From NCBI RefSeq assembly GCF_004138335.1, contig NZ_RYFW01000001.1, positions 2,108,001-2,172,000 of the forward strand: a stretch of 64,000 nucleotides of DNA, in the 5' to 3' direction. The position numbers and the translations under genes are program-made. The notes beneath the pieces were generated by a model. That model worked only from the letters and a program-made list of their open reading frames with translations. It searched no databases and had not been told where the DNA came from. Shown here piece after piece: positions 48,029 through 54,549 of the stretch. Origin of the DNA: Peristeroidobacter agariperforans. Lineage in GTDB: Bacteria; Pseudomonadota; Gammaproteobacteria; Steroidobacterales; Steroidobacteraceae. Position 1 is the first letter of the stretch. Each line of letters starts with the position of its first letter.

Positions 48029-48868
48029 TTACTGCGGCGGTTCCTGACCCGGCTGAGGGTCTTCGAGGGGGTAGGTCTGCACGCCGCTGGGAGCCGAGCT
48101 GCTGGCCGTGGAAGCCGGCGGTTGAGTCGGGGTCGCGGGCGGCGGGGTGGTCGCCGGGGCGGCCGGCACATTGCCGCTGGCCGAACGCTGCACGGCTGCG
48201 ACGAACTGATCCGCCGGGGCCGGTGCGCTCGGCGCGTCGGCACGGATGATCTCGCTGGCCAGGATGCCGGGCTTCTTATAGAACGATTCGTTCGAGGAGC
48301 TATCGATGGTGATGGCCGAGCCGTCGAGCGCGACACCTGCGAACAAGCCGCTGGCGCGCGAATATGAATACACCTGCGCGGTCAGCCCGATATCGGTTGC
48401 CGCCGAGCTCTGCCGGCCGACCGGACCCGCCGCGACCGACGCGTCCGCGCCCAGCGTGACCTTGCCGCCGACGATGCCTTCGATGCTTTGCTTTGAGGTG
48501 AAAACGAGCACGACGTCGGCGGACTGCACGCCGACCTGGAAGCCGAAGCTGCCGCCAGTCAGGTTGATGAAAATCGGATTGCTCCACGCGCCGGTGTCCT
48601 TACGAACGACCAACACGCCCTTGCCGCGACGACCGCCGATGCCGAGACCGACCTTGATGACGGTGGGGATGACGGCAACGGCGTAAGCGCGCTCCATCAA
48701 CCAGGTAGGAATATTTTGCTCGGGCATGCTCATCAGCTCGCTCAGCACCTGTGTCGAGGTGAGCAGCCGTGCCTCCTGGCGCTCGCCAGCAACAGCACCG
48801 GCGGTCATGGCGCAGGAAAGCAGAAGCACCGCGAGCTTGGTCGCGAACAGGTTGGATCGTGTGCGCAT
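48029..48868 (-). CDS. SYLF-domain (Ysc84-like) lipid-binding protein with Pro/Ala tail
   Basis: A 279-residue exported protein. Signal peptide (LAVLLLSCAMTAGAVAGERQ) is followed by the SYLF/Ysc84 domain (LTSTQVLSELMSMPEQNIPTWLMERAYAVAVIPTVIKVGLGIGGRRGKGVLVVR and TGGSFGFQVGVQSADVVLVFT). SYLF domains bind phosphoinositides in eukaryotes; bacterial members are mostly uncharacterised envelope proteins. The last 60 residues are proline, alanine and serine rich (PPPATPTQPPASTASSSAPSG) and low-complexity. It follows the Ser/Thr kinase gene by 89 bases on the same strand. Confidence 0.88.
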   Translation of the reverse strand: MRTRSNLFATKLAVLLLSCAMTAGAVAGERQEARLLTSTQVLSELMSMPEQNIPTWLMERAYAVAVIPTVIKVGLGIGGRRGKGVLVVRKDTGAWSNPIFINLTGGSFGFQVGVQSADVVLVFTSKQSIEGIVGGKVTLGADASVAAGPVGRQSSAATDIGLTAQVYSYSRASGLFAGVALDGSAITIDSSSNESFYKKPGILASEIIRADAPSAPAPADQFVAAVQRSASGNVPAAPATTPPPATPTQPPASTASSSAPSGVQTYPLEDPQPGQEPPQ

Positions 48869-48957: not shown

Positions 48958-51728
<2,771 letters not shown>

Positions 51729-51732
<4 letters not shown>

Positions 51733-52463
51733 GAGGCTTCGGGTTCGCGATTCCGTTGCGGTCGGATCTGGCGCAGGATCCAGGCCTTCGCGAGCCGGAT
51801 CTCCCGGTCGACGGTGGCCTCGGACACCTTCAGGGTCTCGGACAGCTCCTGATAGGTGAGGCCGCCGAAGTAGTGCAGCTCCACCATCTCCGCGAGGCGC
51901 GGATTGTTGCCGGACAGGCGCTGCAAGGCCTCGTCGATTTCCAGCACGTCGATATCGCCCGCGGTCGCGGGGCCGAGATCGAGCACGTCCATGTCGAAGT
52001 CGTTCAGCGAGCCCGTGGTGGTGCCGCCGCGTTTGTCACGAAACCGGCTCTTGGCGTGATCCACCAGAATACGGCGCATCTGCCGCGCGGCCACAGCGAA
52101 GAAATGAGCACGGTCCTGCCACGAGACATTCATCTCGACGAGCTTGACGAATGCCTCGTGCACGACGGCGGTGGCCTGCAGGGTGTGGCCCGGGCGCTCG
52201 CGTTTCATATAGCGGCGAGCCCGGTTGCGCAGCTCCTCATATATGAGCGGCGTCAGTCGTTCCAGGGCGCGAGTGTCCCCTGACTGCCACGCAGACAACA
52301 GCCGTGTCACTGCCTGGCGGTCGGGCGGTGGAATGGCCGCTGCGATTGTGTTGCTCAGTTGCGGGTCTCCGATTCGGGGCCTGTCTGTTCTTCCAACCGA
52401 AAAACGCCACGGCGTTTTCGACGGGTTCTCTAGTTTACGGGCTCGAGTGCGACAGTTTCTCAC
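51729..52463 (-). CDS. ECF-type sigma factor of the kinase-linked group
   Basis: A sigma-70 family protein with region 2 (LIYEELRNRARRYMKRERPGHTLQATAVVHEAFVKLVEMNV) and region 4 (RLAEMVELHYFGGLTYQELSETLKVSEATVDREIRLAKAWILRQI). The sequence type is the Sigma70_ECF family associated with Ser/Thr kinases (ECF43-like). The first 35-50 residues are not conserved. A GTG at 52310 would give 193 residues, closer to family length, so the start is uncertain. Its TGA overlaps the kinase start. No anti-sigma factor is present. The divergent repeat-protein gene is a natural candidate target. Confidence 0.9.
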
Positions 52464-52657
52464 CTGGCGCCCCGGCTGTACCGCGTCGCTAAGCCAAAAC
52501 CGCCTTACGGCCGTCCCTGAATCCGGCCCAACCGATTGATTTGCGGGATGTCCCGAAATTGCGGTTGAGCGATGTACTGATTGTTCCTTTTTTCTTCCGC
52601 TTGTCCAGGGGGCTGTGACGGGATTCTCAAGGGGACATCGCTTAACTCAGTGATCGA

Positions 52658-52679
52658 GCCAGTGCGACTGGCGTTTTTT
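52658..52679 (+). terminator. Intrinsic terminator inside the leader of the repeat-protein gene
   Basis: The hairpin GCCAGT-GCG-ACTGGC is followed by GTTTTTT, a classic rho-independent form. It lies 28 bases before the ATG of the repeat gene, and no plus-strand gene lies upstream of it. It would end an upstream leader RNA or act as an attenuator for the gene. An alternative is that the main promoter lies downstream of it, but only about 28 bases remain. Confidence 0.6.
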
Positions 52680-52707
52680 AGCACTTTTCCCGGGAGGGGT
52701 TGTTGTC

Positions 52708-53265
52708 ATGCGTAACGTATTTGCAATTTCGATGGCGGTGGCGGGCGTTCTGTTTGCTTCTAACGCGAGCTCTGGCGCGCAGCTGGCGGACGGCGATACG
52801 GGCGGCAAGCGCCCGGTATTTAACATTGTCGACGGCGACACGGGTGGCAAGCGTCCGGTCCTGGCCGATGGCGACACGGGTGGCAAGCGCCCGGTATTTA
52901 ACATCACCGACGGCGACACCGGAGGCAAGCGTCCGGTCTTGACCCTGGCCGACGGCGATACCGGCGGCAAGCGGCCGGTATTCAACATCGTCGATGGCGA
53001 CACCGGCGGTAAGCGCCCGGTGCTGGCCGACGGCGACACGGGCGGCAAGCGTCCGGTGCTGAACCTCACCGACGGCGATACGGGTGGCAAGCGCCCGGTG
53101 CTGGCGGACGGCGATACAGGTGGCAAGCGCCCGGTGCTGAACCTCACTGACGGCGACACCGGCGGCAAGCGTCCGGTGCTGGCCGATGGCGATACCGGCG
53201 GTAAGCGCCCGGTGCTGAACCTGGCCGATGGTGACACCGGCGGCAAACGCCCGGTGCTCGCTTAA
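52708..53265 (+). CDS. Secreted protein made of twelve DGDTGGKRPV repeats
   Basis: A 185-residue protein. A ribosome-binding site (GGAGG at 52693-52697) precedes the ATG. A signal peptide (VFAISMAVAGVLFASNASSGAQ) is followed by a mature part consisting only of repeats. The 10-residue core DGDTGGKRPV is invariant in all twelve. Spacers of LA, FNIV, FNIT, LTLA, LNLT and LNLA make 12- and 14-residue units that mostly alternate (26-residue super-unit). Amino acids are conserved while codons vary, indicating selection on the protein. I do not recognise any family. The acidic DGDTGG part could bind Ca2+, and the KR could be a processing site. Both are speculative. Confidence 0.8.
   Translation: MRNVFAISMAVAGVLFASNASSGAQLADGDTGGKRPVFNIVDGDTGGKRPVLADGDTGGKRPVFNITDGDTGGKRPVLTLADGDTGGKRPVFNIVDGDTGGKRPVLADGDTGGKRPVLNLTDGDTGGKRPVLADGDTGGKRPVLNLTDGDTGGKRPVLADGDTGGKRPVLNLADGDTGGKRPVLA
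52789..53262 (+). repeat. Tandem array of 36- and 42-bp coding repeats (12 units)
   Basis: Unit lengths in residues are 14, 12, 14, 14, 14, 12, 14, 12, 14, 12, 14, 12, giving 158 residues. All units are in phase with the coding frame. Nucleotide differences between units are mainly at third codon positions (for example GGC/GGT, GAC/GAT, AAG/AAA). The array is close to a 78-bp double-unit minisatellite and could change copy number by slippage or recombination. Confidence 0.9.
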
Positions 53266-53310
53266 CAAACGAATCCTATTCGCAAGTTTGAATTCGCGTT
53301 GGAGATAGAG

Positions 53311-53553
53311 ATGACAAAGCGTCGTATCGCCCTTGGCGCCGCCATGTTGCTCACGCTCGGCACCGCAGTGGCCAGCACGTTTCTGTACGGCCACGAGCAG
53401 GCCGCGATGGTCGAGCAGCCGATCACGTTGCCTTCCGACACAACCACCTCGGCAGCAGGCTCGAGTGTCTCGACCGTGACTGCGGAGCAGATCGCGATGT
53501 GGAAGGCCACTGCCGCATCGACTGACTACGAAGCTCTGAAAGCGCCGATCTAA
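53311..53553 (+). CDS. Small exported hypothetical protein
   Basis: An 80-residue protein starting at the ATG at 53311, with GGAGA 6 bases upstream; a TTG at 53299 is less likely. An N-terminal signal or anchor (RRIALGAAMLLTLGTAVASTFLYG) is followed by a Ser/Thr-rich and then helical tail ending in YEALKAPI. It starts 45 bases after the repeat gene and is followed by a strong terminator, so the two form one operon. No family is recognised. It could assist export, anchoring or processing of the repeat protein; this is inference. Confidence 0.65.
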   Translation: MTKRRIALGAAMLLTLGTAVASTFLYGHEQAAMVEQPITLPSDTTTSAAGSSVSTVTAEQIAMWKATAASTDYEALKAPI

Positions 53554-53571
53554 CTTACCGGCGCAACACTG

Positions 53572-53610
53572 GCGTGCGACCGGTTCCCTCCCACCGGTCG
53601 CACGCTGTTT
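53572..53610 (+). terminator. Strong rho-independent terminator closing the repeat-protein operon
   Basis: GCGTGCGACCGG and CCGGTCGCACGC form a perfect 12-bp stem with a 10-base loop, followed by TGTTTG. It lies 18 bases after the small gene stop. It separates this unit from the riboswitch-led operon. Bases 53611-53850 hold no gene that I can support. A TTGACA (53771-53776) may be the -35 element of the riboswitch promoter, though no good -10 follows at standard spacing. Confidence 0.8.
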
Positions 53611-53850
53611 GCCGCTCGATGCACACAGGGTGGGAAGGCAGGCTGTCAGTCGTCTGCGTACGGATACAAGGCGTCGACGGCGTTGTCGTCGCCTACCGAC
53701 AGACCTTTGAAATGTGCGGCAAGTCACAGGCCCGTCGCGTTTTTGCGCCGCTGGCATCACACTTCGTTCGTTGACATATTTGCGCTGCGTATAGCACCCT
53801 AGCTGGCGTTGTCAGAGGTGTAGCCACGCTCGTGTCAGGGGCCACCTTAA

Positions 53851-53930
53851 GCAAGGGCAAACTCACCGAAAGGTGGGGACGCAAAGCCACCGGTCTAAGG
53901 GAATTGATCCTAGGACAGCGGGGTTGCCAG
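53851..53930 (+). ncRNA. Cyclic-di-GMP-I (GEMM-I) riboswitch
   Basis: The conserved GEMM-I elements are present in order. They are AGGGCAAAC; a short stem capped by a GAAA tetraloop (CACC-GAAA-GGTG); GGACGCAAAGCC; a second helix containing the tetraloop-receptor sequence (CCGGTCTAAGG...CCTAGGACAG); and GCGGGGTTGCC. These bases form the c-di-GMP pocket in known examples. The aptamer ends about 75 bases before the likely start of the TlpA-like gene. The region between contains GC-rich pairable sequence (GCCGGCCTC/GGAGGCGCC) but no T-run, so control of translation or a longer-range mechanism is possible. Confidence 0.9.
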
Positions 53931-54003
53931 CGCCGGCCTCTCATTCATTGTGGAGGCGCCGATCGGCTGCCTCACCGCGTGTCCGGCGACGAATAAAAGT
54001 TCG

Positions 54004-54549
54004 ATGTCACAGTCCTCACAAGCTCGCTTGCCGCTCCAGGCTGCCGCACGGATGCCACGCTTTGCATTGCTGGCGTTGTTGCTGCTCGGGCCCGCTGTGT
54101 GCGTGCCGGCAACCCAACTAGTCGGCCAGCCCGCGCCGGACTTTGCACTGCGTTCGTGGGACGGCGCGAACATGCGCCTGTCCGAACACTCCGGCGAAGT
54201 AGTGCTGATTAACTTCTGGGCAACCTGGTGCGGGCCCTGTCGCCAGGAGATGCCATTGCTCGATGAGATCTATGGCAAGTACCGCCGCGCCGGCCTGGTC
54301 CTGTTCAGCGTCAACCTGGATGAGGAAACCAATGTCGACGCGGCGCGTGAAATGGCGAAGACGCTGCGCGTCAGTTATCCGGTGCTGTTCGATGCTCGCA
54401 AGGAAGTGAGCCGTGCCTATCAGGCGAGCACCATGCCGCTGACCGTACTGATCGATCGCGAAGGTGTGGTGCGCTACATCTCCGAGGGCTACAAGGCCGG
54501 ATATGAAACGCGCTACACCGAAAAGCTGCGTGAACTGCTGAACGAGTGA
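54004..54549 (+). CDS. TlpA/ResA-like periplasmic thioredoxin
   Basis: A protein of about 181 residues. The ATG at 54004 gives a basic region and signal/anchor helix (RFALLALLLLGPAVCVPA); ATG 54052 (shorter) and GTG 53950 (overlapping the riboswitch region) are alternatives. The thioredoxin domain has VLINFWATWCGPCRQEMPLL with the CGPC active site and the cis-Pro region TMPLTVLID. It is a periplasmic disulfide reductase or redox chaperone of the TlpA/ResA type. It is the first gene downstream of the c-di-GMP riboswitch and the next gene follows after 89 bases. Confidence 0.9.
   Translation: MSQSSQARLPLQAAARMPRFALLALLLLGPAVCVPATQLVGQPAPDFALRSWDGANMRLSEHSGEVVLINFWATWCGPCRQEMPLLDEIYGKYRRAGLVLFSVNLDEETNVDAAREMAKTLRVSYPVLFDARKEVSRAYQASTMPLTVLIDREGVVRYISEGYKAGYETRYTEKLRELLNE

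Follow-up and report, generated by a model that had tools for sequence, protein, structure and literature searches.

The window, a stretch of 64,000 nucleotides of the Peristeroidobacter agariperforans genome, carries on its forward strand a gene with an ATG start (52708..53265) for a tandem-repeat protein of 185 residues in which DGDTGGKRPV occurs twelve times. A putative Sec signal peptide, MRNVFAISMAVAGVLFASNASSGA, recognised by eye from the sequence (52708..52779, forward strand), precedes the array of twelve units (52789..53256, same strand), which are spaced 12 or 14 residues apart; written as a peptide, the window-type unit is DGDTGGKRPVLNLA and its two-unit form (DGDTGGKRPVLNLA)2. After a gap of 45 bases, a second gene of the forward strand (53311..53553) encodes a small partner of 80 residues, probably exported, that ends in ...WKATAASTDYEALKAPI and is conserved in relatives. 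A sequence-only reading of this region had taken the repeat protein to be secreted, in keeping with its hydrophobic N-terminus, and the small exported partner that it described is indeed present; it made no mention of the kinase-sigma pair next door, the dedicated promoter, the paralogues or the partner-repeat echo, all described below. A probable terminator hairpin with a 14-bp stem (53571..53606, forward strand) closes the repeat-partner operon: the segment 53555-53620 folds at -37.1 kcal/mol (z -5.5), and the hairpin is absent from a terminator scan that demands at least five T in the eight bases past the stem. The repeat and partner genes look like one closed operon.

Divergent from this operon are two genes of the reverse strand that overlap by 4 bases (51729-51732). 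The first (51729..52463; its true start may be internal to the ORF) encodes an ECF43-type sigma factor (Sigma70_ECF; TIGR02999), with matches to PF07638 (3.2e-49) and TIGR02999 (2.7e-57) that both exceed the cut-offs. Judged by eye, QATA replaces the DAED motif of ordinary ECF factors (HTLQATAVVHEAF in the ORF), and the protein has the ECF43 feature of a threonine at the phosphorylated position with no DAED in region 2.2. In the available text of two papers, the ECF43 consensus is given as QTTA and its threonine as phosphorylated by the neighbouring kinase (PMC13147305, PMC8999054). The second gene (48958..51732) encodes a membrane Ser/Thr kinase of 924 residues (Pfam Pkinase, 2.6e-46, and TPR_12), with the kinase domain at residues 92-310, one transmembrane segment at 417-435 by hydropathy and a TPR superhelix at about 440-910, a layout that would place the kinase domain in the cytoplasm and the TPR domain in the periplasm. 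The AlphaFold2 model of the TPR domain is a long superhelix (pLDDT 87). Among solved structures, kinesin light chains come closest to this domain in sequence; in fold it is most like OGT, APPBP2 (in complex with an RxxGP degron), LGN and kinesin light chain, and of these LGN, kinesin light chain and APPBP2 are peptide-binding TPRs. Beside the kinase gene, a Ysc84/SYLF-domain protein (PF04366, 1.4e-35) is encoded on the reverse strand at 48029..48862 (start provisional), and similar genes adjoin the kinase at several fetched ECF43-type loci (by eye).

A c-di-GMP-I riboswitch (RF01051, 81 bits) occupies 53846-53931, upstream of a TlpA-like thioredoxin gene (53950-54549). We rejected it as a part of the operon and place it outside the cassette, because it lies beyond the hairpin and ahead of the TlpA-like gene; in G010 a different gene follows the partner (G, C and L numbers are our handles for genomes, contigs and loci). 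In the fragmentary genome G004 (C170, L065, about 1010-1480), a second short tandem-repeat region lies 3' of the partner gene.

The repeat array and its promoter

The array is translated and under selection as a peptide. The core is perfect in 12/12 copies while all twelve 30-nt DNA units are distinct (0 identical pairs of 66), as the sequence-only reading had held when it described identical copies with differing codons. The 34 variant cells, which fall in 9 of the 30 nucleotide columns, are synonymous without exception; in the consensus unit only 24 of the 90 possible single changes (about 27%) are, and the chance of all-synonymous variation in the window array is about 3e-8. Since the DNA units differ and yet all of their variation is synonymous, the array is translated, selected as a peptide and no fresh DNA duplication, which bears out the earlier claim of selection on the peptide. 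The strict alternation of 12- and 14-residue units proposed at the same time holds only in part: both spacings occur, but the start-to-start distances (14,12,14,14,14,12,14,12,14,12,14) include a run of 14,14,14. The spacers between cores are either LA or four residues long (FNIV, FNIT, LTLA, LNLT, LNLA). The structure model of the repeat protein is unreliable (pLDDT 44); this low-confidence model draws the VFNIV- and VLNLT-type spacers as short strands.

The suggestion that the repeat belongs to no known family has held up. Neither Pfam, applied to eight window genes, nor NCBIfam gave the repeat protein a convincing match (each one hit, below the curated cut-off), PDB sequences gave none either (best E 0.13), and in the portion of the literature that our search covered, with all preprints and most subscription journals excluded, we found no description of the repeat family. 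The partner likewise has no convincing Pfam or NCBIfam match. The sigma-kinase part belongs, by its sequence, to the ECF43/STPK pairs; the repeat and the partner match no family convincingly. In line with the sequence-only reading, no RiPP modifying enzyme was recognised next door, either by eye from the starts and ends of the called proteins in the fetched neighbourhoods or by Pfam on the eight window genes.

Upstream of the repeat gene is a candidate dedicated promoter of the ECF type, TGTGACGGGATTCTCAAGGGGACATCGCTTA (31 bp, 52614..52644, forward strand), with a -35-like TGTGAC and a -10-like CATCGCTTA. The pattern TGTGAYN{15,18}CRTCGSTTA matches the 7.65-Mb host genome exactly twice, upstream of its two repeat genes, and gives 9 hits across the 14 genus genomes, each of them ahead of a repeat gene, against 1 for the reversed control. 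In a search that allowed 23-29 nt, 21 of 27 cassettes are preceded by a GTGA...TCGCT-like site of exactly 28 nt; with the length fixed at 28 nt and at most one mismatch, the count rises to 26 of 27, the exception being G011:C28. Among 205 other gene upstreams that served as a control, there was 1 exact 28-nt site, which is the G013 repeat gene left in by the filter, and 6 within one mismatch, one of which is possibly the same gene. The pattern GTGAGGGN{12,18}TGTCGCTTTA was found in 7/396 genomes of the order, all of this family and all with a spacer of 14 (control 0); two of the hits are cassettes and five lie elsewhere. When the regulon search in the host was relaxed to 3 mismatches, it returned 21 hits versus 64 in the control, and thus nothing beyond chance. 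A rigid two-block promoter of this kind fits an ECF sigma factor, probably the one encoded in the window.

Several other elements surround this promoter. A Crp/Clp-like palindrome, TGTGA-N6-TCACA, overlaps it (52614-52629) in much of the genus, the window having TCTCA. We rejected a Crp/Clp site as the main promoter element, since the right half of TGTGAN6TCACA decays in other genera whereas the 28-nt geometry of GTGA/TCGCT stays; a Crp-type protein may act at the promoter as a second input. Between promoter and ATG, the leader contains a small hairpin and six T (52658-52680), and the hairpin is apparently kept in close relatives with altered stem bases (by eye). As an attenuator, the leader hairpin (52658-52672) was dismissed: the scan found it, but shuffled sequences fold just as well as 52640-52710 (z +1.0). 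A promoter-like site of the form GTGAGGGN14TGTCGCTTTA lies at about position 1501 of L172, L173, L175 and L176 (G029:C16, G010:C1:163367, G009:C231 and G008:C2:1180124), between ferrochelatase- and thiolase-like genes (by eye); a GC-rich, stem-like sequence and no evident exported ORF follow, possibly an ECF-controlled small RNA. The same promoter form stands at position 1501 of L174 (G003:C1:2073127), before a large SpvB/YD-repeat-like protein that appears to be exported (by eye).

Repeat arrays and kinases in related genomes

With the whole repeat protein as query, matches were obtained in 9 of 60 genomes (host included), all of the same GTDB genus; the partner was matched in 11 of the 30 genomes searched (host included), all of one genus, and its alignment leads to eight named records, from Steroidobacter, Peristeroidobacter, Povalibacter and MAGs; Steroidobacter agaridevorans and Povalibacter uvarum, both among them, have the cassette. 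A KRP-periodic DNA pattern matched 7/14 genus genomes, against two control hits in a single genome. The ECF protein as query matched 31 of 217 family genomes at E 1e-45, and the cassette or its beginning is present in 23 of these 31 (11 of the genus, nine of genus g6, and G029, G023 and G015). It was not seen in five other ECF-matched genomes (G016, G034, G070, G110, G146), nor at the G006 locus; G143 is masked at the locus and the G096 locus was not fetched. The G120 contig carries the signal sequence alone, the array being cut off. Because loci outside the genus were located through the ECF gene, their adjacency to it is by construction; they contain a tandem-repeat protein predicted to be exported and a small partner, the latter in other genera as a small, apparently exported ORF in the equivalent position. 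No partner gene was called at G000:C12 or at its S. agaridevorans counterpart. In a class sample of 369 genomes, the ECF was found at E 1e-55 only in the host and G013, and nine ECF loci of other families of the order (L129-L132, L134-L137, L139) showed no exported repeat gene with a crude signal filter that may miss some.

Repeat units were compared in 27 gene models. In the relatives the unit is short, contains a proline motif, is largely homogeneous within each gene and occurs in 2-20 copies. The main locus is syntenic across the fetched genus genomes and the repeat varies. Its arrays are made of DGDTGGKRPV (x12, twice), DGDSGGKRPV (x16 and x20), DGESGTKRPL (x14, one with KGP), DGSGGGKRPV (x8), DGSGGAKRPL (x14), DAVDVKRPQ and DVVDIKRPQ (x11 together), DNI(P/A/V)VRPPV (x6), ENNPPMRPL (x13, one with MCP) and, in G002, DGVVNVKRPQ, the gene there being split over two contigs. 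The paralogue loci have DGVVGGKRPLLA, DGTVGGKRPLLA, GDTGGAKRPLLA, DDTGGAKRPL, DETAGGKRPLFA and DGVGTAKRPL. Units outside the genus are SSPGGIRPPQVLA (G029), DGTTVPLPPKFM (G023) and DAHPANPPRFAVQ (G015), and in genus g6 DSIGTHPPQFEVR, DSPPTSPPRAIVL, DSAPTLPPRAGVL, DTPPASPPHAVVM, DLPPTVPPHLALL, DSQPSLPPRARVM or -VL, and a degenerate DIPPSVPPHIRIL.

The association of the arrays with kinases is solid. Seventeen distinct arrays were found in the genus by their own sequence, G002:C15/C20 and G005:C524/C570 being counted as contig-split arrays, and the fetched sequence of 15 of the 17 shows a TPR-kinase gene directly beside the array or with just the sigma gene in between. At the main locus the ECF43-type sigma gene lies between array and kinase; at seven of the 15 kinase-linked loci (L067-L073) no ECF sigma gene was called, which makes the kinase the constant neighbour of the array. 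The G005:C570 array, cut by the contig end, has the ECF gene adjacent, and the G005:C279 array has no recognisable signal peptide and no kinase within its 3.3-kb contig. Of the kinase paralogues in the host, the one most similar to the window kinase (50% identity) adjoins the second repeat gene; the ten others are 32-43% identical to the window kinase, and a crude signal filter detected no such repeat gene in their 1.5-kb flanks. A module of kinase, array and usually partner (both predicted to be exported), and private promoter, plus an ECF43-type sigma factor at the main locus, is firmly supported. At G005:C279 (L076, reverse strand 1959-2477), a EGVGTAKRPLIQLA array stands beside CheB- and HDOD-like genes (by eye); this MAG contig has other simple repeats, and the array would be a decayed copy or an assembly artefact.

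The repeat, the partner C-terminus and the TPR domain

Partner C-termini echo the repeat of their own locus. Partners ending in API, LPI or VPL accompany KRPV, KRPL or KRPQ arrays, and other pairs are IPL with RPPV, VPL with MRPL, RPL with KRPL, RPF with KRPLF, PPL with RPPQ, PPR with PPR, PPH or PPK, RPR with PPR (once) and PPQ with PPQ only. Over 25 loci, which share ancestry and whose repeat units were entered as hand-picked consensus strings, the BLOSUM62 score of the C-terminal tripeptide against the own-locus repeat is 12.6, whereas internal windows score 4.7, shuffled ends 9.4 and re-paired loci 8.5; each of these three controls reached the observed score in 0/1000 trials, and re-pairing within clades reached it in 7/20000. 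The echo is weakest in G008 and G002 (score 4). G001 (near-identical to the host), G004 (array off contig), G120 (cut) and loci without a called partner were left out.

The TPR domain diverges faster than the kinase domain. Within the genus, identity to the window is 71-99% in the kinase domain and 39-98% in the TPR part that is predicted to be periplasmic. Over the 17 genus loci, the repeat distance correlates with the TPR distance once the kinase distance is removed (r 0.33, permutation p 0.0014), versus r 0.06 (p 0.34) for the kinase once the TPR distance is removed, p-values that are optimistic because the loci are not independent. In the full set of 25 loci the repeat distance follows both the kinase (partial r 0.38) and the TPR (0.31), and thus this larger set does not discriminate between them.

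The host and S. agaridevorans differ at one locus throughout the array, with DGVVGGKRP in 10/10 copies in one and DGTVGGKRP in 10/10 copies in the other; the codons are GTG or GTC versus ACG or ACC, and the first 70 bases of the gene are identical. At the main locus the two arrays share their core. In these soil bacteria of the Steroidobacter family, such an array-wide letter change between species is suggestive of a peptide signal that evolves fast together with a receptor. Between the two genomes, the TPR domain has 32/482 changes at the switched locus versus 11/484 at the main locus (Fisher p 0.001), and 12 of the 32 fall within 54 residues (70/20000 random placements in a scan), while the kinase domain has 2/222 changes at the switched versus 2/221 at the non-switched locus. 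Omega is 0.081 (switched) versus 0.044 (non-switched) in the TPR domain, all purifying, and 0.014 versus 0.028 in the kinase domain. However, dS is also higher at the switched locus (0.42 versus 0.25), so that part of the TPR excess is general divergence. In the pair G003/G009, TPR omega is 0.132 at the locus with the changed repeat versus 0.068 at that with the unchanged core, and kinase omega 0.041 versus 0.047. Linkage alone could generate correlated divergence.

A candidate ligand-receptor module

What purpose could an exported repeat serve beside a kinase? The explanation that we favour is that the repeat protein and its partner form an undescribed component of STK-ECF43 signalling and act as ligands of the kinase's TPR domain, a view that we hold to be as open to being wrong as to being right. 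Both proteins would then be dedicated exported parts of a signalling module centred on the Ser/Thr kinase. The TPR-sensor membrane kinase of the main locus would phosphorylate and activate the ECF43-type sigma factor, by extrapolation from PknS-EcfK and PknT-EcfP, and the activated sigma factor would transcribe the divergent repeat-partner operon from its private promoter. Once in the periplasm, the array with its repeated proline-containing motif and the partner with its matching C-terminus would dock into the groove of the TPR superhelix, the former as a multivalent and the latter as a single-motif ligand, and might tune or self-amplify kinase activity. Perhaps unit turnover homogenises the arrays, such that a new motif variant reaches all copies and the TPR domain follows, which would result in a fast-diverging ligand-receptor pair. 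A ligand mechanism of this kind would explain the linkage to kinases without a sigma gene, the echo and the co-divergence. That it amounts to a new kind of ligand-receptor system, in which array and partner are cognate TPR ligands, an ECF43 factor is the relay and motif types insulate parallel circuits, is a proposal to which we give somewhat less than even credence.

The main rival, which we regard as unlikely though well worth considering, is that the repeat protein is something the kinase-sigma pathway produces and not its ligand. Cells that meet envelope stress or predators would make it as a protective coat, decoy or binder, secreted or periplasmic, and the partner would serve as its membrane anchor or chaperone. 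Such a role would fit the private promoter, as expected of a regulon member, and copy numbers from 2 to 20 might well be seen in coats or decoys. ECF43 pathways do control defence outputs, a T6SS against amoebae in Xanthomonas and polymyxin resistance in Vibrio, according to the available text of a review (PMC8999054). However, it is hard to see why an output should have a motif in common with the partner C-terminus or should track the TPR domain, and the kinase remains the constant neighbour even at the seven loci without a called sigma gene.

It is improbable, in our estimate, that the array is a multi-copy precursor cut to 12-14-residue peptides that are released as a pheromone or antimicrobial. 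Tandem identical units, short spacers and array-wide type switching are reminiscent of multi-copy pheromone precursors, and this idea is compatible with TPR ligands if the cut peptides are the ligand. Yet there is no constant cleavage site, as GG, KR and the spacer are unconserved across the 27 gene models, trypsin-like enzymes cut R-P bonds poorly, and no dedicated protease or transporter was recognised by eye in the fetched neighbourhoods. The sequence-only reading had proposed cleavage at GG or KR, which does not hold as a general mechanism because both are absent in PP-type relatives; a protease of another type may cut the precursor. The comparison of gene models likewise weakens its two other proposals, calcium-dependent DGDTGG loops and a structural fibre. 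DGDTGG is loop-like and the low-confidence model has short spacer strands, but acidic residues are not conserved in relatives, where DGD is lost (for example in DAVDVKRPQLA and SSPGGIRPPQVLA), arrays go down to 2 units (in one relative within a protein of 46 residues), the model has a pLDDT of 44 and no RTX or similar Pfam match was found; a calcium-binding or fibre protein is thus very improbable. That the ORF is an untranslated repeat merely resembling coding sequence, as its other frames, also open on both strands, might allow, is scarcely credible, since the core variation is all synonymous and the signal-like N-terminus, the promoter and the downstream gene are kept across genera.

Candidate TPR ligands of this sort invite comparison with known systems. 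The RRNPP proteins (Rap, NprR, PlcR, PrgX) are TPR receptors of short secreted peptides with fast co-diversification, but they are cytoplasmic and Gram-positive and are not known to carry a kinase domain, whereas the TPR domain of the window follows a transmembrane segment on a kinase. Multi-copy pheromone precursors such as yeast alpha-factor are secreted proteins in which identical peptide units follow one another in tandem; unlike the alpha-factor precursor, window-type arrays have no constant protease site. AfsS of Streptomyces coelicolor is not known to be exported. The pathway to which it belongs, AfsK-AfsR-AfsS, resembles the module in that, according to the parts of the source available, it joins a Ser/Thr kinase to a TPR protein and to a small protein that has three repeats of 12 residues, but AfsS is described there as a sigma-like regulator (PMC2267785); the TPR domain of AfsR is mentioned in the accessible part of another paper (PMC10936776). 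Closest in design is PknS-EcfK of Xanthomonas citri, which, like the window, combines a kinase, a transmembrane segment and a periplasmic TPR domain with an adjacent ECF43-type sigma factor, and in which the DAED-equivalent motif contains a threonine in both cases (QATE in EcfK, QATA in the window sigma); its output, however, is a T6SS, and the available text mentions no secreted repeat-partner operon (PMC13147305). PknT-EcfP of Vibrio parahaemolyticus likewise involves sigma activation by phosphorylation, as proposed for the window, and envelope stress, but it serves a polymyxin response, and no repeat protein is mentioned in the accessible part of the review (PMC8999054).

As far as its available text goes, the 2026 paper on PknS defers the periplasmic signal, or how the periplasmic part brings about activation, to later work (PMC13147305). 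With its candidate ligands encoded next to the kinase gene, the locus bears on what ECF43-linked TPR kinases sense, and the natural repeat variants predict ligand specificity. Array-wide residue switching under peptide selection makes ligand-receptor co-evolution open to study. If array and partner are indeed TPR ligands, the species- and paralogue-specific motif types would insulate parallel circuits from one another.
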